Below, in pieces: positions 15,503 to 50,055 of a stretch of DNA of 64,000 nt. A model generated the notes under the pieces. It ran no database searches. It was not told the origin of the DNA and was given only the letters and a program-made list of their open reading frames with translations. Position numbers and translations under genes: made by a program. Within the stretch, counting starts at the first letter, position 1, and each line of letters begins with the position of its first letter. This stretch comes from Rummeliibacillus pycnus (GTDB taxonomy: Bacteria; Bacillota; Bacilli; Bacillales_A; Planococcaceae), in assembly GCF_002884495.1 (NCBI RefSeq), contig NZ_KZ614145.1:1688423-1752422 (forward strand). Direction: 5' to 3'.

Positions 15503-15574
15503 TGACCCCTACGAGATTCGAACTCGTGTTACCGCCGTGAAAGGGCGGTGTCTTAACCGCTTGACCAAGGGGCC
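15503..15574 (-). tRNA. tRNA-Glu (TTC)
   Basis: A full cloverleaf has acceptor GGCCCCT/AGGGGTC and anticodon loop CTTTCAC. CCA is not encoded. It is the last gene of the array. Confidence 0.95.
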
Positions 15575-15577
15575 AAC

Positions 15578-15668
15578 TGGCGGAGAAGGAGGGATTTGAA
15601 CCCTCGCGCCGGTTACCCGACCTACACCCTTAGCAGGGGCGCCTCTTCAGCCACTTGAGTACTTCTCC
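15578..15668 (-). tRNA. tRNA-Ser (GCT)
   Basis: This class II tRNA has a long variable arm, anticodon loop CTGCTAA, a fully paired acceptor GGAGAAG/CTTCTCC, the normal G discriminator and encoded CCA. Confidence 0.95.
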
Positions 15669-15671
15669 ATA

Positions 15672-15748
15672 TGGCTCCGAAGGCAGGACTCGAACCTGCG
15701 ACCCTCTGATTAACAGTCAGATGCTGCTACCAACTGAGCTACTTCGGA
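15672..15748 (-). tRNA. tRNA-Asn (GTT)
   Basis: The anticodon loop is CTGTTAA in stem TCTGA/TCAGA, the acceptor is TCCGAAG/CTTCGGA, and CCA is encoded. Confidence 0.95.
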
Positions 15749-15757
15749 ATCATAAAA

Positions 15758-15833
<76 letters not shown>

Positions 15834-15843
15834 AAATTTATTA

Positions 15844-15919
15844 TGGTGGGTCGGGACAGAATCGAACTGCCGACACTTAGAGCTTCAATCTAATGCTCTA
15901 CCAACTGAGCTACCGACCC
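15844..15919 (-). tRNA. tRNA-Phe (GAA)
   Basis: The anticodon loop is TTGAAGC in stem TTAGA/TCTAA. Positions 37 and 38 are G and C, where bacterial tRNA-Phe normally has A and A. The acceptor GGGTCGG/CCGACCC is paired and CCA is encoded. Confidence 0.92.
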
Positions 15920-15947
15920 ATAATCAGTTAATAGATTTAATACAAAA

Positions 15948-16024
15948 TGGCGGTCCGGACGGGGCTCGAGCCCGCGACCTCCTGCGTGACAGGCGGGCAT
16001 TCTAACCAGCTGAACTACCGGACC
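15948..16024 (-). tRNA. tRNA-Asp (GTC), with unusual T-loop
   Basis: The anticodon loop is CTGTCAC and the acceptor GGTCCGG/CCGGACC. The T-loop reads CTCGAGC instead of TTCGANT, so T54 is C, and the anticodon stem has a C29-A41 mismatch. CCA is encoded. Confidence 0.9.
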
Positions 16025-16028
16025 ATTT

Positions 16029-16105
16029 TGGTTGCGGGGACAGGATTTGAACCTGCGCCCTTCGGGTTATGAGCCCGACGCGCTACCGAACTGCTCCACC
16101 CCGCG
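16029..16105 (-). tRNA. tRNA-fMet (CAT), initiator, with D-stem mismatch
   Basis: It has the initiator marks: unpaired C1-A72 and three G-C pairs flanking the anticodon loop CTCATAA. The D-stem shows A11 opposite G24, where initiators have a pyrimidine at 24. CCA is encoded. Confidence 0.92.
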
Positions 16106-16132
16106 ATAATTGTATAGTTACTTTATAAATAA

Positions 16133-16225
16133 TGGAGGCGGAAGAGGGATTCGAACCCCCGCGCGGTTTGACCCGCCTGTCGGTCTTCAAGCCCGATCCC
16201 TTCAGCCAGGCATGGGTATTCCCCC
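16133..16225 (-). tRNA. tRNA-Ser (TGA), several non-canonical bases
   Basis: This class II tRNA has anticodon loop CTTGAAG and a long variable arm. The acceptor has G3 opposite G70, the anticodon stem has G31 opposite A39, and the discriminator is T instead of the usual G for serine. CCA is encoded. It may be a weak or dead copy. Confidence 0.85.
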
Positions 16226-16233
16226 AGGTAATA

Positions 16234-16307
16234 TGGCGGCCGAGGGGATCGAACCCCCGACCTTACGGGTATGAACCGTACGCTCTAGCCAGCTGAGCTA
16301 GGCCGCC
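16234..16307 (-). tRNA. tRNA-Met (CAT), elongator
   Basis: The anticodon loop is TTCATAC in stem TACGG/CCGTA and the acceptor GGCGGCC/GGCCGCC is fully paired. CCA is not encoded. The body resembles the Bacillus elongator Met, not the lysidine-type Ile tRNA. Confidence 0.9.
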
Positions 16308-16331
16308 ATAATTGTATATTAAAATTTAGAT

Positions 16332-16407
16332 TGGTGGAGCCTAGCGGGATCGAACCGCTGACCTCCTGCGTGCAAGGCAGGCGCTCTCCCAGCTGAGCTA
16401 AGGCCCC
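16332..16407 (-). tRNA. tRNA-Ala (TGC)
   Basis: The anticodon loop is CTTGCAC, and the acceptor contains the G3-T70 wobble that AlaRS recognises. CCA is encoded. Confidence 0.96.
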
Positions 16408-16426
16408 ATATGTAAATCTAAAATGA

Positions 16427-16500
16427 TCGGGAAGACAGGATTCGAACCTGCGACCCCTTGGTCCCAAACCAAGTGCTCTACCAAGCTGAGCTACTTCCCG
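16427..16500 (-). tRNA. tRNA-Pro (TGG)
   Basis: The anticodon loop is TTTGGGA in stem CTTGG/CCAAG and the acceptor is CGGGAAG/CTTCCCG. The 3' end reads TCA where CCA would be, so CCA must be added after transcription. Confidence 0.94.
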
Positions 16501-16504
16501 AATA

Positions 16505-16581
<77 letters not shown>

Positions 16582-16622
16582 AAATATAAATCAAAACATT
16601 TCAATATTATATAAATAAAAGA

Positions 16623-16711
16623 TGGTGCCGAGGACCGGAATCGAACCGGTACGGTAGTCACCTACCGCAGGATTTTAAGTCCTGTGCGTCTGCCAGTTCC
16701 GCCACCCCGGC
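16623..16711 (-). tRNA. tRNA-Leu (TAA)
   Basis: This class II tRNA has anticodon loop CTTAAAA and variable arm GGTAGGTGACTACC. The acceptor is paired with one G-T and CCA is encoded. Confidence 0.95.
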
Positions 16712-16720
16712 ATCTCTTAA

Positions 16721-16795
16721 TGGAGCGGAAGACGGGGTTCGAACCCGCGACCCCCACCTTGGCAAGGTGATGTTCTACCACTGAACTACTTCCGC
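16721..16795 (-). tRNA. tRNA-Gly (GCC)
   Basis: The anticodon loop is TTGCCAA in stem TCACC/GGTGG, the acceptor is GCGGAAG/CTTCCGC, and CCA is encoded. It is the first tRNA of the array; no rRNA gene precedes it. Confidence 0.95.
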
Positions 16796-29914: not shown

Positions 29915-30694
29915 CTAAAAGCCTACTAGTTCGGCAATTTTTTGCTCCGGATTGGATTGTTCTTGAAACCATTGGATTTTTTCATGTAATTTGACTACTT
30001 CACCTACAATAATCATGGAAGGGTTTGAAATATTCGATTCTTCTACAATCGATTCAATATTTTCAAGTCTCCCAGTCACTGTTTGTTGCTTGTTATAAGT
30101 CCCCCAATGTACAAGTGCAACAGGTGTTTCCTTAGATCGACCAAATTTAAGAAGCTGCGACACGATATATGGTAGGTTTTTTACCCCCATATAAATTGCA
30201 AGTGTTTCAATATTAACTAGTGACTCCCATTTTAAATCATCATCCTTTCCCTCCTGACGATGACCCGTTACAATAGCAAAGCTAGAACTTAAGTCACGAT
30301 GCGTTACGGGAATACCCGCATAGGCTGGAGCAGCAATTCCTGAAGTTATTCCCGGTACAATTTCAAATGGAATTTGTTTATTGGCAAGAACTTCTGCTTC
30401 CTCTGCTCCTCTACCGAAGACGAATGGATCGCCACCCTTTAAGCGAGTAACTATCTTTCCTTCCATGGCATAACGCACGAGTAATTCATTGATACTTTCC
30501 TGAATCATGGCATGTCGATTTGGAAGCTTACCGCAAAAGATGAGCTCTGCATTTGGTTTCGCATAGTTCAATAATTCTTTATTTAATAAACGGTCATATA
30601 AAATAACGTCTGCCTCTTTAATGCATCGGAGTCCCTTCACTGTAATAAGTTCTATATCTCCTGGACCTGCACCTACAATGTATACTCGCCCCAT
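29915..30694 (-). CDS. cobA: Uroporphyrinogen-III C-methyltransferase (SUMT)
   Basis: This 259-residue SAM-dependent enzyme methylates uroporphyrinogen III at C2 and C7 to precorrin-2, the entry to siroheme. Landmarks are VYIVGAGPGDIELITVKG at the N-terminus, RLKGGDPFVFGRGAEE near residue 84, and VPGITSGIAAPAYAGIPVTHR near residue 112. Bacillus homologues are SirA/YlnD and NasF. No precorrin-2 dehydrogenase (SirC/YlnF) follows, so that step must be encoded elsewhere. The gene sits directly behind a terminator-type leader at 30728-30813. Confidence 0.94.
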   Translation of the reverse strand: MGRVYIVGAGPGDIELITVKGLRCIKEADVILYDRLLNKELLNYAKPNAELIFCGKLPNRHAMIQESINELLVRYAMEGKIVTRLKGGDPFVFGRGAEEAEVLANKQIPFEIVPGITSGIAAPAYAGIPVTHRDLSSSFAIVTGHRQEGKDDDLKWESLVNIETLAIYMGVKNLPYIVSQLLKFGRSKETPVALVHWGTYNKQQTVTGRLENIESIVEESNISNPSMIIVGEVVKLHEKIQWFQEQSNPEQKIAELVGF

Positions 30695-30727
30695 TCAATC
30701 ACCTCTATGATGTAGAATTTAAGTTTA

Positions 30728-30813
30728 AAAAAGGCATCCAGCTATAAAAACCTTCGCCATTAAAATTTGCGAAAGATTTATATAGCTGGATGCCTCTAGT
30801 TGTCTAGTCGGCT
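30728..30813 (-). promoter_or_regulatory. Sulfur-operon leader 1: conserved hairpin plus terminator before cobA
   Basis: On the minus strand bases 30813 to 30792 form a hairpin with outer pairs GCC/GGC, a GA/A internal loop, inner stem CTAG/CTAG and loop ACAA. Its last GGC is also the base of a strong terminator (AGGCATCCAGCTATA with TATAGCTGGATGCCT, then a T-run) that ends 35 bases before the cobA start codon. Readthrough would be needed to express cobA-sirB-cysJ-cysI. The same design recurs at 33608-33665 and 33830-33897. It starts 11 bases after the yezD stop codon. Confidence 0.75.
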
Positions 30814-30823
30814 AGCCAAATCA

Positions 30824-30979
30824 TTATTTACTTTTTGTATTTTTTTGAAATCGCTGCTTTTCAACCCGATTAATTTGTACGATAACACCATCCTGAATTG
30901 TAATTTGTACTTCTCCAAATTGAATACCTTCGATAGCCTTCTCAATAGCTTTTAATTTCTCCTGCTTAGTTATCGGCAT
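30824..30979 (-). CDS. yezD: YezD-family (DUF2292) small protein
   Basis: This 52-residue protein starts MPITKQEKLKAIEKAIEG and has the DUF2292 core FGEVQITIQDGVIVQINRVEK, predicted as one helix plus a beta-hairpin, ending in a basic tail. GAGGGG lies seven bases before the ATG at 30979; an ATG six bases further up is too close to that site. It is the first gene behind a sigma-A promoter and precedes the attenuator and the siroheme/sulfite genes. YezD proteins have no known function; their link with sulfur genes fits what I remember of the family. Confidence 0.82.
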   Translation of the reverse strand: MPITKQEKLKAIEKAIEGIQFGEVQITIQDGVIVQINRVEKQRFQKNTKSK

Positions 30980-31036
30980 TTGCATTCCCCTCACTCAAAT
31001 ACTTAGTAAACTAATAGGTTTTCTATACTTGACACT

Positions 31037-31065
31037 ATTTTAGACTTGTTAGTATTTATTGTCAA
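31037..31065 (-). promoter_or_regulatory. Sigma-A promoter of yezD-cobA-sirB-cysJI
   Basis: On the minus strand TTGACA and TAAAAT are separated by 17 bases, about 60 bases upstream of yezD. Downstream, around 31000-31020, TTAGT and ACTAA form a short inverted repeat that could be an operator. Confidence 0.7.
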
Positions 31066-31093
31066 TTGTTTTTTGTAAAATTTTAATATGAAA

Positions 31094-31119
31094 GCCACCT
31101 AGTCGAAATACTAGGAGGC
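31094..31119 (-). terminator. Probable terminator of cysH-sat-cysC
   Basis: GCCTCCTAGT pairs with ACTAGGTGGC on the minus strand, starting 14 bases after the cysC stop. The T-run after it is interrupted, so it may be leaky. Confidence 0.55.
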
Positions 31120-31132
31120 CCATACCTAAATA

Positions 31133-31714
31133 CTATATATTTAATTCTTTAATAAGTTGCTGTACACATTCCTCTATGGAATATTGCTCTGTATCTAATA
31201 TGATTTCTGGATTATTTGGTGCCTCGTATGGTGCTGAAATTCCTGTAAAGTTTGGAATTTTTCCAGCCTTAGCCTTTTTGTACAATCCCTTAGGATCTCG
31301 AATTTCACATATCTCCACAGAAGCCTTTACATATACTTCAAGAAACTCTCCATCTTCTACTAATTGACGAACGACTTCCCGATCTTGACGATACGGTGAA
31401 ATAAATGCCGTGCAGACGATATGACCAGCATCTACAAATAGTTTTGCAACCTCACCGATTCTACGAATATTTTCCTTCCGGCTATCTTCATCAAAGCCTA
31501 AATCCTTATTTAGGCCGTGGCGAATATTATCACCATCAAGCACATACACAGCCTTACCACGATTAAAAGCTTCACGTGCAAAAGCATTTGCAATCGTTGA
31601 TTTTCCAGATGCTGATAGTCCAGTAAACCAAAGAATTACGCTTTTTTGCCCGCTTTTCTCCTCACGCTCTTCCTTGGTAACAGATGCATCATGCCATACA
31701 ATATTTTCTGCCAT
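31133..31714 (-). CDS. cysC: Adenylylsulfate kinase
   Basis: CysC phosphorylates adenylylsulfate (APS) to PAPS with ATP. The 193-residue protein has P-loop [14 protein letters not shown] near residue 32, [11 protein letters not shown] near residue 59, and [13 protein letters not shown] near residue 104, all diagnostic. GGGGGA lies upstream of the ATG and 11 bases separate it from sat. It is the last gene of the cysH-sat-cysC unit. Its presence beside a CysH with 4Fe-4S cysteines means that APS, PAPS or both could feed reduction. Confidence 0.95.
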
Positions 31715-31725
31715 TATGATTCCCC

Positions 31726-32865
31726 CTAGACTTCTGTCTTTTCTCTCATACCCTTAATCAGTACTTCGACAACTTCTTTACGACTAAAGGTTGCTGGTGG
31801 CACCTCACCATTACGCAGCATTTCTCGAACCTTTGTACCGGATAATATAATATGATGCTCATGGTCATGAGGACATGTTTTAGTTGTTGCCATTCCTTCA
31901 CAAGCCGTGCAATAGAAGCTATGCTCAAACTTTAAAGGTTGAATTCCTAGTTCTTCAGCAGTAAATTGATCAAAGATTTTTTGTGCATCATAAGTCCCAT
32001 AATAATCACCCACACCTGCATGGTCGCGTCCAACAATAAAATGTGTACATCCATAGTTTTTACGCACAAGTGCATGGAAAATTGCCTCTCTTGGACCTGC
32101 ATAACGCATCGCAGCTGGGAAAATACCTAGATGAACACGATTTTTTGGATAATAATTTTCAAGGAGCACTTGGTAACTTTCCATTCGTACTTCAGCAGAA
32201 ATATCATCAGATTTCGTTTCACCTACTAATGGATTTAAAAAAAGACCATCGATTGTTTCTAAAGCTGCCTTTTGAATATATTCATGTGCACGATGAACAG
32301 GATTGCGAGTTTGGAAGCCTACAATTGTTTCCCAGCCTTTTTCATCAAAAATGGCACGTGTTTCTGCTGGTGTAAATGTATACTCCTCAAATGCAGGTTC
32401 TTGTCTATGAATTAATGTAATGTCCCCGCCCACATATGAATTTGGTCGCGAGAATAGCTTTGATACACCAGGATGTGCCTCGTCCTTTGTTCCATATACT
32501 TTTTCAGCTTCTTTTTGTTTATCTGGTGTATAGATAGAGGCAACCTCAATCACACCATATGTAACACCATCTTTTTCAAGCTTTACTGTATCTCCAAGTT
32601 CAATCGTTGCAAGTTCAGCGTCTGAAACGGGTAAAGTAATTGGAATACTCCAAACAGTTCCATCAGCTAATCGCAAACGTTCAACAACTGAAAGATAATC
32701 TTCCTCATTAAAAAAGCCAGTAATTGGACTGTATCCACCAATACCGATTAGCTCTAAATCACTTAAGGCAATTGCGTCAAGTGTAATGGTTTTATGAATT
32801 GATGAAATATTTAATGATGGATTGAAACGAGATACTAACGTACCACCATGTGCAACGTTTGTCAT
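31726..32865 (-). CDS. sat: Sulfate adenylyltransferase (ATP sulfurylase)
   Basis: Sat activates sulfate with ATP to APS. This monomeric-type enzyme of 379 residues carries the catalytic [14 protein letters not shown] near residue 192, [12 protein letters not shown] near residue 280, and a C-terminal block with [38 protein letters not shown] adds a Cys/His-rich loop, seen in this subgroup as a possible metal site. I start it at the ATG at 32865, eight bases after GGAGG; the TTG at 32871 is closer to the site. It lies 18 bases downstream of cysH. Confidence 0.96.
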
Positions 32866-32883
32866 ATTCAATTCCTCCTCTAA

Positions 32884-33588
32884 TTAGCCATGTAGGCCAC
32901 ATTCTGTTTTTCCTGTATTTTGCCAACGACCTGACCGTAAATCATCAGCTGTCCAAGCAGGCTTCGTACATTTTTCGCACCCTATACTTGGATAGCCTTG
33001 ATCGTGTAAAACATTATACGGTAGATCATGTTTTGTTACATAACGCCAAACATCTTTCCAAGTCCAATAAATAAGCGGGCAAATTTTAATCGCCTCGAAT
33101 TTTGAATCCTTGTTAAAATACTCTGTATTTGCTCGTGTTGGACTTTGCTCTCTTCGTAGTCCCGAAATCCAAGCAGGTGCATTTGACAACTCCTCATGCA
33201 ATGGCTCAATCTTTCGAATTCTACAGCACTCATTTGGATTTGTTTCCCACAGCTTTTCACCAAATTGAGATGCCTGTTCATCGAGCGAAAGCTTTGGCTG
33301 CTTCATTTCAATTTGAAGACTTGGATATTTTTCTTTCACCTTTTGAATAGTTTCATATGTTTCTTGAAAATGGAGATTCGTATCTAAAAAAACAATTCTT
33401 GCATCCGGCTTTATTTTTGTAATCAGATCAATAAGTACAATTCCCTCAATACCAAAGCTACAGCCATATACAAGCTGGTCCTTATACGTATCATAGCTCC
33501 ACTTTAAAACTTCGAGCGCTCCTTTATAATTAGGATCATGTTCAATTGCAGGAATTTGAGCCTCTTCAAATGTTTCAAAAGTAAGCAT
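32884..33588 (-). CDS. cysH: APS/PAPS reductase
   Basis: CysH reduces APS or PAPS to sulfite with thioredoxin. The 234-residue protein has the nucleotide loop [13 protein letters not shown], the two cysteine pairs of 4Fe-4S reductases (NECCRIRK and [10 protein letters not shown]), and the catalytic C-terminal Cys in GKTECGLHG. The Fe-S pairs favour the Bacillus-type enzyme, which accepts APS. GGAGGG precedes the ATG. It leads the operon, directly after leader 2 and its terminator, so its expression depends on readthrough. Confidence 0.95.
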
Positions 33589-33607
33589 TTTTTACCCTCC
33601 TTCCATA

Positions 33608-33665
33608 AAAAAAGGCACTCTAATGGCTATACCCATTAAAAGTGCCTCCAGTTGTCTGGTTAGCT
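33608..33665 (-). promoter_or_regulatory. Sulfur-operon leader 2: conserved hairpin plus terminator before cysH
   Basis: On the minus strand bases 33665 to 33644 form a hairpin with outer pairs GCT/GGC, an AA/A internal loop, inner stem CCAG/CTGG and loop ACAA. The closing GGC begins the terminator stem (AGGCACT with AGTGCCT, then seven T), which lies just upstream of the cysH ribosome site. A second small hairpin, AATTCAC/GTGAATT, lies between the promoter and this element. Confidence 0.75.
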
Positions 33666-33704
33666 AATATAAATAGTAATTCACGAATAAGTGAATTGTT
33701 TCGA

Positions 33705-33734
33705 AGTATAAATCATATTTAACCAACCTGTCAA
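33705..33734 (-). promoter_or_regulatory. Sigma-A promoter of cysH-sat-cysC
   Basis: On the minus strand TTGACA and TATACT are 18 bases apart. The predicted start is about 30 bases before the leader 2 hairpin. Confidence 0.7.
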
Positions 33735-33782
33735 CTAGTATTCTAAAAAAACAGAAAACAATAAATATTTTTTAATTCTTAG

Positions 33783-33812
33783 TTGACTAATTGGAAATAA
33801 GTGTTTTAATAT
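33783..33812 (+). promoter_or_regulatory. Sigma-A promoter of the sulfate transporter operon
   Basis: TTGACT and TAATAT are 18 bases apart. The predicted start near 33819 puts the leader 3 hairpin only about ten bases into the transcript, so nothing larger than this hairpin can act as sensor in this leader. Confidence 0.65.
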
Positions 33813-33829
33813 TACATAAAGCAAAAACG

Positions 33830-33897
33830 AGCTGATCAGACAAACTGAAGGCTACATTCAATGACACAGTACTGTTCCATTGAGTGTAGTCTTTTTT
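33830..33897 (+). promoter_or_regulatory. Sulfur-operon leader 3: conserved hairpin plus terminator before sbp
   Basis: Bases 33830-33852 form a hairpin with outer pairs GCT/GGC, a GA/A internal loop, inner stem TCAG/CTGA and loop ACAAA. The closing GGC is the base of a 14-pair terminator (GGCTACATTCAATG with CATTGAGTGTAGTC, then TTTTTT) that ends about 85 bases before sbp. The inner stem differs from leaders 1 and 2 by changes on both sides that keep pairing. Confidence 0.75.
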
Positions 33898-33981
33898 CGG
33901 TTTTCCAAAGTCAGCGATGTAACATTATTTCTTATGATGCTAAAAAACAATTAAATTCATAAAGGAGTGTGAAAAAAATAT

Positions 33982-35028
33982 ATGAAAACTACAAAAAAAA
34001 TTGCTGTATTTATAGCTGCAAGCTCACTGGCGATGGTGATTAGTGGGTGTTCTAGTTCTGATCAAAAGGGTTCAGGAAGCACAGATAAAACCATTAATCT
34101 ATTAAATGTATCATATGACCCAACACGAGAATTGTATGAAGAAATCAACAAATCCTTCACAAAAGAATGGAAAGAAAAAACAGGACAGACCGTTAAAATT
34201 CAGCAATCTCATGGTGGCTCTGGAAAGCAAGGGCGTGCGGTAATTGACGGCTTACAGGCAGATGTTGTAACGCTAGCACTTGCTTATGATATTGATGAAA
34301 TTGCGGCAAATCGTAATCTTATTAACAAGGAATGGCAAAAAGAATTACCGGATCATTCCTCTCCATACACATCAACTATTGTATTTCTTGTTCGGAAAGG
34401 AAATCCGAAACATATTCAAGACTGGGACGATCTTGTAAAGAAAAATATCTCTGTTATTACACCTAACCCTAAAACTTCTGGGGGAGCACGCTGGAACTAT
34501 TTAGCTGCATGGGGATATGCGGATCGTAAATATCACGGTGATCAGACAAAAATTAAGGACTTTATGAAAAAGCTTTATAACAATGTAGAGGTTCTTGACT
34601 CAGGTGCTCGTGGTTCAACAACAACATTTACAGAGCGACAAATTGGAGATGTTTTAATTGCATGGGAAAATGAAGCTTATCTATCGTTAAAAGAGCTTGG
34701 TAAGGACAATTTTGAAATAATCACACCATCATTAAGTATTTTAGCAGAACCACCTGTAGCAGTTGTTGATAAAAATGCCAACGCAAAAGGAACTGAAAAA
34801 GTAGCAAAAGCATACTTAGACTATTTATATACAGATGAAGGTCAAGAAATTGCTGCTGAAAATTATTATCGTCCGCGTAACAAGAAAATTTTAAAAGAGC
34901 ATACAAAACAATTTCCAAACCTTAAATTAATGACAATTGATGATTTTGGAGGCTGGCAGAAGGCTCAGAAGGAACACTTCAGCGATGGTGGTACGTTTGA
35001 TTCTATTTATACACCTAAGAATCAGTAA
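33982..35028 (+). CDS. Sulfate/thiosulfate ABC transporter substrate-binding lipoprotein
   Basis: This 348-residue Sbp/CysP-type protein is anchored outside the membrane by its lipobox (VISGCSSS, Cys at residue 23) and captures sulfate for the CysTWA importer. Binding-site blocks include [20 protein letters not shown] near residue 75, [10 protein letters not shown], and [19 protein letters not shown] near residue 166. GGAG lies 14 bases before the ATG, somewhat far. It is the first gene after leader 3 and is followed by the two permeases and the ATPase. Confidence 0.93.
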
Positions 35029-49639: not shown

Positions 49640-50055
49640 TTTAGCATCATTAAAAGACCATAAGCCATGTTTTGTGCCCAAGTACTATCACGGCTTTCGC
49701 CTTGTACGACTGGGTAGTAATCATCTATCTACGAAAGTAAAAAACCTTCGTCTCTCCATCCATTCATTTCCTTCAGGAGAGTGCCCCTACCATAATTTGG
49801 GTTGCTCACTCGTGGGGTTTACCTCGTTCCACCTGTTACGTTTCCGCAACAGCTTCGTCACTGTGGCACTTTCAGAGAGTTTCAACCATATCCAATAGTG
49901 GACTTAGGTTTTCCTCTCGCCGTCAGCCATTTGACTGCCTTAGCTTATTTATTCACTAAGCACGAACACTACGGTCATCTCAGATCCGTGTGAGCATGGA
50001 CTTTCCTCAACAACGTCAAGCGTTGCAGCGATTACTTGTTCTTTTATGATGACTT
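49640..50055 (-). ncRNA. rnpB: RNase P RNA, type B
   Basis: The minus strand carries the catalytic RNA of RNase P, which matures tRNA 5' ends. Conserved segments in order are GAGGAAAGTCCATGCTC near the 5' end, CGTAGTGTTCGTGC, GAAAGTGCCACAGTGACGA, GGTAAACCCC, the Bacillus-type AGATAGATGATTACTACC, and ACAAAACATGGCTTA near the 3' end. The terminal helix P1 pairs CATCAT near 50051 with ATGATG near 49645. Ends are set to about five bases. The position upstream of gpsB matches other Bacillales. Confidence 0.95.

Follow-up and report, generated by a model that had tools for sequence, protein, structure and literature searches.

Small protein-bound RNA hairpins that overlap the 5' base of a transcription terminator are a feature of the LicT/SacY/BglG systems, where the gene of the regulator acting at the ribonucleic antiterminator (RAT) hairpin may sit in its own operon. 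In Bacilli, sulfur genes are subject to transcription attenuation by the S-box or SAM-I riboswitch (RF00162), a large metabolite aptamer, and riboswitches for S-adenosylmethionine (SAM) allow expression at low SAM. In the available text of a study of Bacillus methanolicus, a SAM-I riboswitch is placed upstream of cysH (PMC4342826), and in Pseudomonas corrugata the oscA gene sits with sulfate transport genes and is tied to sulfur starvation and chromate resistance, the accessible parts of the two reports giving no RNA target or mechanism (PMC2996968, PMC3596284). Here we describe a small RNA switch in a stretch of 64,000 nucleotides (nt) of the Rummeliibacillus pycnus genome (contig NZ_KZ614145.1, forward-strand positions 1,688,423 to 1,752,422; hereafter the window), where three sulfur operons each follow a hairpin fused to a terminator, together with its candidate partner, a small protein of the DUF2292 family (PF10055, also YezD or OscA). 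We consider it likely that DUF2292 binds the nascent hairpin under sulfur limitation and blocks termination. The hairpins and terminators are located as follows, in window coordinates.

30792 to 30813, minus strand: hairpin 1, AGCCGA-CTAG-ACAA-CTAG-A-GGC, between the DUF2292 gene and cobA
30733 to 30794, minus strand: terminator 1, GGC at 30792-30794 common to hairpin 1, U tract at 30727-30732
33644 to 33665, minus strand: hairpin 2, AGCTAA-CCAG-ACAA-CTGG-A-GGC, in the cysH leader
33614 to 33646, minus strand: terminator 2, GGC at 33644-33646 common to hairpin 2, U tract at 33607-33613
33830 to 33852, plus strand: hairpin 3, AGCTGA-TCAG-ACAAA-CTGA-A-GGC, in the sbp leader
33850 to 33891, plus strand: terminator 3, GGC at 33850-33852 common to hairpin 3, U tract at 33892-33897

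The three hairpins had been reported in a first-pass annotation of the window, and their exact sequences were confirmed. They follow a common plan (5'-3', AGCY-RA-4 nt-ACAA(A)-4 nt-A-GGC), for which landmark patterns with up to three mismatches have a chance expectation of 0.00-0.01 in the window, and each of them folds alone into GCY-RA-4 bp-loop-4 bp-A-GGC at -7.5 to -8.0 kcal/mol. At all three sites the GGC that closes the hairpin doubles as the start of a strong, U-tract-bearing terminator, of which it forms the first three bases. Removal of this foot weakens terminator 1 by 9.3 kcal/mol (from -34.4 to -25.1), terminator 2 by 8.4 (from -16.7 to -8.3) and terminator 3 by 6.6 (from -20.5 to -13.9). 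In minimum-energy folds spanning both structures the foot pairs in the terminator, and therefore hairpin and terminator compete, in agreement with the earlier remark that the two cannot both form fully. Outside the window, the same genome has a fourth copy (G000:C1:1337497-1337524, minus strand), upstream of a gene for an SsuE-like flavin mononucleotide (FMN) reductase; a cobalamin riboswitch lies directly downstream of this reductase gene (L304, 1237-1411, minus strand).

The arrangement resembles that of LicT/SacY/BglG in that a hairpin, here putatively bound by a protein, overlaps the 5' base of the terminator, where binding would block termination, whereas it differs in the hairpin itself, in the unrelated small protein and in the sulfur and phage genes that follow. 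BglG/LicT-type antitermination was considered and rejected, as the RNA-binding domain CAT_RBD (PF03123) is absent from the source genome and present in just 4 of 60 hairpin genomes, and so was the described bglG/RAT cis element, with 21 bits for RF03530 against a gathering threshold of 80. Like the S-box, the element would attenuate transcription of bacillar sulfur genes, but no SAM-I aptamer was detected at the window sites by Rfam scan; elsewhere RF00162 is found one level up, before DUF2292.

Relatives carry the same element, which is widespread in Bacilli. A strict pattern with the outermost pair of the inner stem left free matched in 14 of 200 family genomes (0 for a reversed-pattern control), and 17 aligned copies have no unpaired cell and show 14 double changes; the inner-stem covariation noticed in the window (CTAG/CTAG, CCAG/CTGG and TCAG/CTGA) is thus genuine and becomes richer once relatives are included. 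A covariance model, R1, matched 94 of the 261 order-level genomes. After 40 regions had been fetched, 61 loci were searched, which returned 82 matches with pairs formed in 99.8% of cells, double changes at five of the seven pairs and a covariation score of 0.332 (0.181 in shuffles, standard deviation 0.010), all these figures being biased towards the search model. A terminator was scored at the foot of 75 of the 82, by heuristic calls that differ among scoring procedures. Landmark matches provide a less biased test, although many of the loci were first found with pairing-aware models: where the GGY foot bears a terminator, the inner stem is fully paired in 162 of 163 distinct sites, with 11 stem sequences (1000 shuffles: mean 63.6, maximum 80), and where it bears none, in 49 of 268. 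When DUF2292 was the sole criterion for choosing loci, pairing holds for 61 of 64 landmark matches close to the stop codon, as compared with 25 of 73 at other places on the same strand and 0 of 55 in antisense. The loop takes many forms across the landmark set.

The last base of the foot is informative for both structures. It pairs with the hairpin arm as G-C (143 cases), A-T (14), G-T (3) or A-C (2) and with the terminator arm as C-G (145), T-A (12), T-G (4) or T-C (1), shifting with both partners from G-C/C-G to A-T/T-A, where the counts are of sequences and not of independent events. This three-way covariation argues that both alternative structures, hairpin and terminator, are under selection. 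It also bears on the idea that the hairpin serves RNA processing or stability and is followed by an ordinary operon terminator, which would suit the many genomes where the hairpin lies between DUF2292 and the next gene, a place at which processing could set stoichiometry; given a foot that covaries with both partners and window cysH and sbp leaders with no gene between promoter-like match and hairpin, this idea appears highly improbable.

In many bacilli the element precedes genes of sulfur uptake. The 82 matches correspond to 78 distinct hairpins and 75 different first downstream open reading frames (ORFs), mechanically chosen and classified from 25 of 27 Pfam families listed, with members matching none uncounted. 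The most frequent classes are siroheme-type methylase (cobA-type, 18), sulfate-binding protein (16) and phosphoadenylylsulfate (PAPS) reductase (cysH, 15), followed by NADPH-FMN reductase (5), ATP-binding cassette (ABC) ATPase (4) and two each of NlpA/MetQ-type lipoprotein, luciferase-like monooxygenase and arylsulfotransferase; single cases include adenylylsulfate (APS) kinase, a Cys/Met pyridoxal-phosphate enzyme and DUF2292 itself. In L054 (1425-6375, contig 65 of G080), six hairpin matches occur in 5 kb, five of them with a scored terminator and three in tandem upstream of one ABC-transporter gene.

In the window, the candidate binding protein is encoded directly upstream of hairpin 1. The genes of the locus are the following.

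30824 to 30979, minus strand: DUF2292 (YezD/OscA-type) gene, 51 amino acids (aa), stop included, candidate hairpin-binding antiterminator
29915 to 30694, minus strand: cobA (siroheme methyltransferase), first gene past switch 1, named from Pfam match and gene order
downstream of cobA, to 25656, minus strand: sirB, cysJ and cysI, named from Pfam match and gene order
32884 to 33588, minus strand: cysH (PAPS/APS reductase), first gene past switch 2, with sat and cysC then to 31133
33982 to 35028, plus strand: sbp (sulfate-binding protein), first gene past switch 3
after sbp, to 37842, plus strand: cysT, cysW and cysA, named from the first-pass annotation and gene order

The ORF, for which an in-frame ATG two codons upstream is a second possible start, is a member of PF10055 (56.6 bits, cut-off 22), the family that also includes OscA and YezD, but is under the equivalog cut-off of the OscA sulfur starvation response protein (NF033785, 38.4 bits, cut-off 85). 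Its stop codon is separated from hairpin 1 by 10 bases, hence this hairpin is an intergenic site between DUF2292 and cobA and not a leader element, and the description of the hairpins as operon leaders holds for cysH and sbp only. The first-pass annotation, which proposed a shared attenuation mechanism with a protein or a ligand bound to the 22-base hairpin, had overlooked this probable binding protein; a shared switch with a protein is still the most likely form of that proposal, and a ligand is now unlikely.

DUF2292 and the hairpin co-occur closely in the order. PF10055 is present in 106 of the 261 genomes, including 92 of the 94 with an R1 hairpin. A second model with looser filters, R2, matched 13 of the 14 genomes having PF10055 only, bringing the hairpin matches to 105 of 106, and several of the weak matches, when read, are a hairpin with a terminator, for example 17 nt past the DUF2292 domain match in G027. 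The matches read in the two genomes positive for R1 and negative for PF10055 are in-gene or lack a terminator. As a control, 46 PF10055-less genomes (6 at E<=1, 40 at E<=0.2) were searched with the loose R2 model, and none of the ten matches, in 8 genomes, is a hairpin with a terminator; the other 109 DUF2292-less genomes were covered by R1 alone, under strict filters. ATP sulfurylase was tested in 80 of the 155 DUF2292-less genomes, 16 of which matched, two marginally, and a clear gene is present in 14 of the 46 control genomes. These 14 genomes have the enzyme without the switch, and therefore the pathway alone fails to explain the hairpin. Two of them carry a SAM riboswitch upstream of sat, and no S-box was detected by Rfam in the 1.5-1.6 kb upstream of three DUF2292-less cysH operons (L301-L303). 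At the level of the class, DUF2292 is found in 120 of 299 genomes and R2 matches in 59, 53 of which are DUF2292-positive; among the six that are negative, the matches read in five are spurious. Six hairpin-only genomes (G068, G110, G320, G390, G392 and G522) were rejected as candidates, the matches read lying in open frames or without a terminator (in G110 those read were the R2 matches and not the R1 place).

Linkage points in the same direction. Among 115 distinct DUF2292 loci, a hairpin with a terminator lies from -5 to +62 nt relative to the stop codon in 53 and solely upstream in 12; in 1 locus such a pair lies on the antisense strand, at any position. In a scan across 84,980 named species, each represented by one genome and with the best 80 of 533 DUF2292 loci kept, the switch was located in species of Brevibacillus, Neobacillus, Thermoactinomyces, Robertmurraya and Heyndrickxia and in Paenibacillus cymbidii. 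These data bear on the possibility that DUF2292 is merely a member of the sulfur regulon and that another protein binds the hairpin. The frequent location of DUF2292 within sulfur operons would suit a target gene, and proteins of about 90 aa also recur in hairpin operons; nonetheless, a hairpin with a terminator is lacking from the 14 genomes with ATP sulfurylase and no DUF2292, 53 of the 115 loci have the switch no more than 62 nt past the DUF2292 stop, the switch accompanies a distant DUF2292 relative ahead of phage genes in satellites (see below), and CAT_RBD proteins, the only regulators checked, are as rare as given above. Another binding protein is thus an unlikely explanation. The proteins of about 90 aa (LP-[DE]-[LV]-RF..C...N.G..NTID) were observed in the hairpin-bearing sulfur operons of L054, L072, L086, L089, L173 and L188; two were scanned, with no Pfam match, and in L173 and L188 the gene is close downstream of DUF2292.

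Phage satellites give the best reason to assign the hairpin to the protein, and not to sulfur genes. Among the DUF2292-less genomes, G475 alone has a convincing switch, located in sequence similar to a Streptococcus satellite phage. This switch lies 3 nt past a small gene; the encoded protein matches DUF2292 and PBSX XtrA, each at E 6e-4 and under the Pfam cut-off of the family. Relatives of this protein are present in 63 satellite-phage records, and the same hairpin-terminator is clear at or right after the stop codon in 10 of the 12 satellite loci read, some of the 10 being near-identical and the two others, Javan205 and Javan294, ambiguous. These copies show new compensatory versions (CTGG/CCAG, CTTG/CAAG and ACT/GGT/ACC), and the genes past them are phage genes, mostly hypothetical, with a minor capsid protein in two. 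The switch stands beside a DUF2292 relative and before phage genes, and therefore follows the protein and not sulfur; this suggests that the satellite hairpin-terminators (L309-L318) form an antitermination gate for satellite genes. The covariance-model search advised by the first-pass annotation has recovered further copies beside sulfur genes with terminators. A phage search with bacterial DUF2292 as query gave no match.

The satellite copies also argue against a small-molecule aptamer, that is, a new minimal sulfur riboswitch. Metabolic gene contexts and the conserved RA/A bulge with an A-rich loop would be compatible with one, whereas the element is 22 nt long with few fixed bases, 11 inner-stem sequences and many loop forms, matches no Rfam family at gathering, precedes phage genes in satellites and tracks a protein gene with a tightness unexpected for a riboswitch. 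We consider an aptamer very unlikely, and since a protein gene is what the element tracks, also in phage satellites, the riboswitch was set aside as main explanation.

The direction of control may be deduced from the genes that carry SAM riboswitches. At 10 of 22 class-level loci (L165-L204; seven family codes), most of which were chosen because hairpin-bearing, RF00162 precedes DUF2292 by 65-183 nt and on the same strand; among further named loci it was found in 0 of 4 and, so placed, in 2 of 20, one of these from the genome of an earlier locus. Loci with a SAM riboswitch directly upstream of DUF2292 are L199, L201, L170, L177, L179, L190, L191, L200, L202, L204 and L243. As SAM riboswitches permit expression at low SAM, production of DUF2292 would coincide with the need for sulfur genes. 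Together with the shared foot, this placement makes antitermination the simplest sign of control. Many attenuation proteins, such as TRAP and PyrR, promote termination, and DUF2292 could likewise bind the hairpin region as a repressor at sulfur excess; however, a stabilised hairpin takes up the very GGC of the terminator and weakens it, and the SAM riboswitches would supply the protein at low SAM, when the sulfur genes should be on, which renders a repressor quite improbable.

From the hairpin, its overlap with the terminator, the three-way covariation, the regulon and the co-occurrence and linkage with DUF2292, all read from sequences, we infer RNA binding by DUF2292, on the grounds of genome comparison alone, as well as its direction of action and the signal. 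By default, the nascent RNA would form the terminator using its GGC/GGY foot, and the polymerase would stop upstream of the sulfur genes. DUF2292, made or active at sulfur shortage, in several lineages through the SAM riboswitch upstream of its gene, would bind the hairpin of 22-23 nt (GCY-RA-4 bp-ACAA-type loop-4 bp-A-GGC) and stabilise it; the bound hairpin would keep the GGC foot, the terminator would lose the G-C base beside its U tract and the polymerase would read through. In the window, the DUF2292 gene lies ahead of switch 1 and would be transcribed first, and one protein could switch on together cobA-sirB-cysJI, cysH-sat-cysC, sbp-cysTWA and the FMN reductase gene of the fourth copy.

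Several observations weigh against this mechanism. G200, the sole exception among the 106 genomes of the order, has DUF2292 followed by a degenerate-looking hairpin remnant, and at the class level R2 matches occur in just 53 of the 120 PF10055 genomes, one of which (G317) is an in-gene false match, with not all the weak ones read. Reading of 33 DUF2292 loci from R2-negative genomes revealed a switch in 19 and none in 14; the misses of R2 in the class are probably due to a GC-rich stem. No hairpin was found in the ranges scanned at 50 of the 115 distinct DUF2292 loci, and among the best 80 species-scan loci the three from the Bacillus subtilis group all lack the switch, as do at least 5 of the 7 named Paenibacillus loci. 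The co-occurrence counts, which carry no tree correction, reflect common descent and shared loss, and 34 of the 46 DUF2292 loci scanned with Rfam have no SAM riboswitch upstream of the gene. Finally, DUF2292 has no recognised RNA-binding domain, and its structural model resembles no solved fold (best Foldseek E 1.7).

This AlphaFold model predicts a helix-strand-strand arrangement (mean predicted local distance difference test 78, predicted template modelling score 0.48). Four positions, G, Q, E and R, are invariant in 29 DUF2292 sequences, and a sequence search of the PDB with DUF2292 returned no solved relative. Single hhalign comparisons connect DUF2292 with the satellite proteins (E 8e-8), the satellite proteins with XtrA of PBSX-type phages (PF17356; E 7e-8) and DUF2292 with XtrA (E 6e-6). 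XtrA is therefore a distant homologue that shares terminators downstream of its gene, but the hairpins there differ in sequence from that of the sulfur genes. A strong terminator lies 15-40 nt past the gene in 13 of 30 XtrA loci and none in the other 17, and for 7 of the 13 a competing hairpin was matched by at most 15 of 300 shuffles, a crude test; five loci were scored without a competing hairpin, apparently since the terminator foot was placed too far upstream. In several genomes XtrA genes (L321-L344) were observed with conserved hairpins of their own overlapping terminators, with sequences that vary by clade.

On these comparisons, it seems rather more probable than its opposite that DUF2292, the satellite proteins and XtrA form one family of tiny RNA-hairpin-binding antiterminators, serving the sulfur regulon in bacteria and late operons in phages and satellites. 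If true, the bacterial sulfur regulon would often be run by a cascade from riboswitch to protein (SAM riboswitch, then DUF2292), and the antitermination family would be unrelated to the BglG, HutP, TRAP and lambda N types. It would give a testable function to the uncharacterised DUF2292/YezD/OscA family found beside sulfur genes and a possible route by which many bacilli, with no S-box at each operon, could bring sulfate, sulfonate and siroheme genes under joint control. The satellite copies suggest reuse of the switch for phage genes, which would be the first role proposed for XtrA. A site of 22 nt and a protein of about 50 aa are quick to test and could yield a compact orthogonal RNA switch. 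Protein-dependent antitermination is known in principle; as far as searched, the protein family, the RNA element, the regulon and the phage use are new. Within the literature searched, which covers few subscription journals, nothing linked DUF2292/YezD/OscA or XtrA to RNA or described the hairpin, and no RNA or antitermination role turned up for XtrA.

Promoter-like sequences were located by consensus match alone.

31037 to 31065, minus strand: TTGACA-17-TAAAAT, upstream of DUF2292-cobA
33705 to 33734, minus strand: TTGACA-18-TATACT, upstream of cysH
33783 to 33812, plus strand: upstream of sbp

The last one fits the earlier statement that hairpin 3 begins about ten bases past the transcription start, but such matches are not commoner than by chance (13, shuffle mean 12.7). 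Outside these lineages, a DUF2292 gene was seen by eye directly upstream of a cysteine-synthase-like gene in L279 (Verrucomicrobia) and L249 (a Bacteroidetes-labelled contig), with no clear hairpin at either DUF2292 locus. Plasmid searches for DUF2292 gave mostly Priestia, and no consensus hairpin was recognised by eye at the Priestia locus L205. The first-pass annotation knew of no named riboswitch with this form; the hairpins match no Rfam 15 family at gathering, and the 14 matches at E<=10 in 30500-34100 are all far under their cut-offs. The only families detected at gathering in the whole window are a class B RNase P RNA at 49656-50043 and 14 tRNA genes at 15503-16795.

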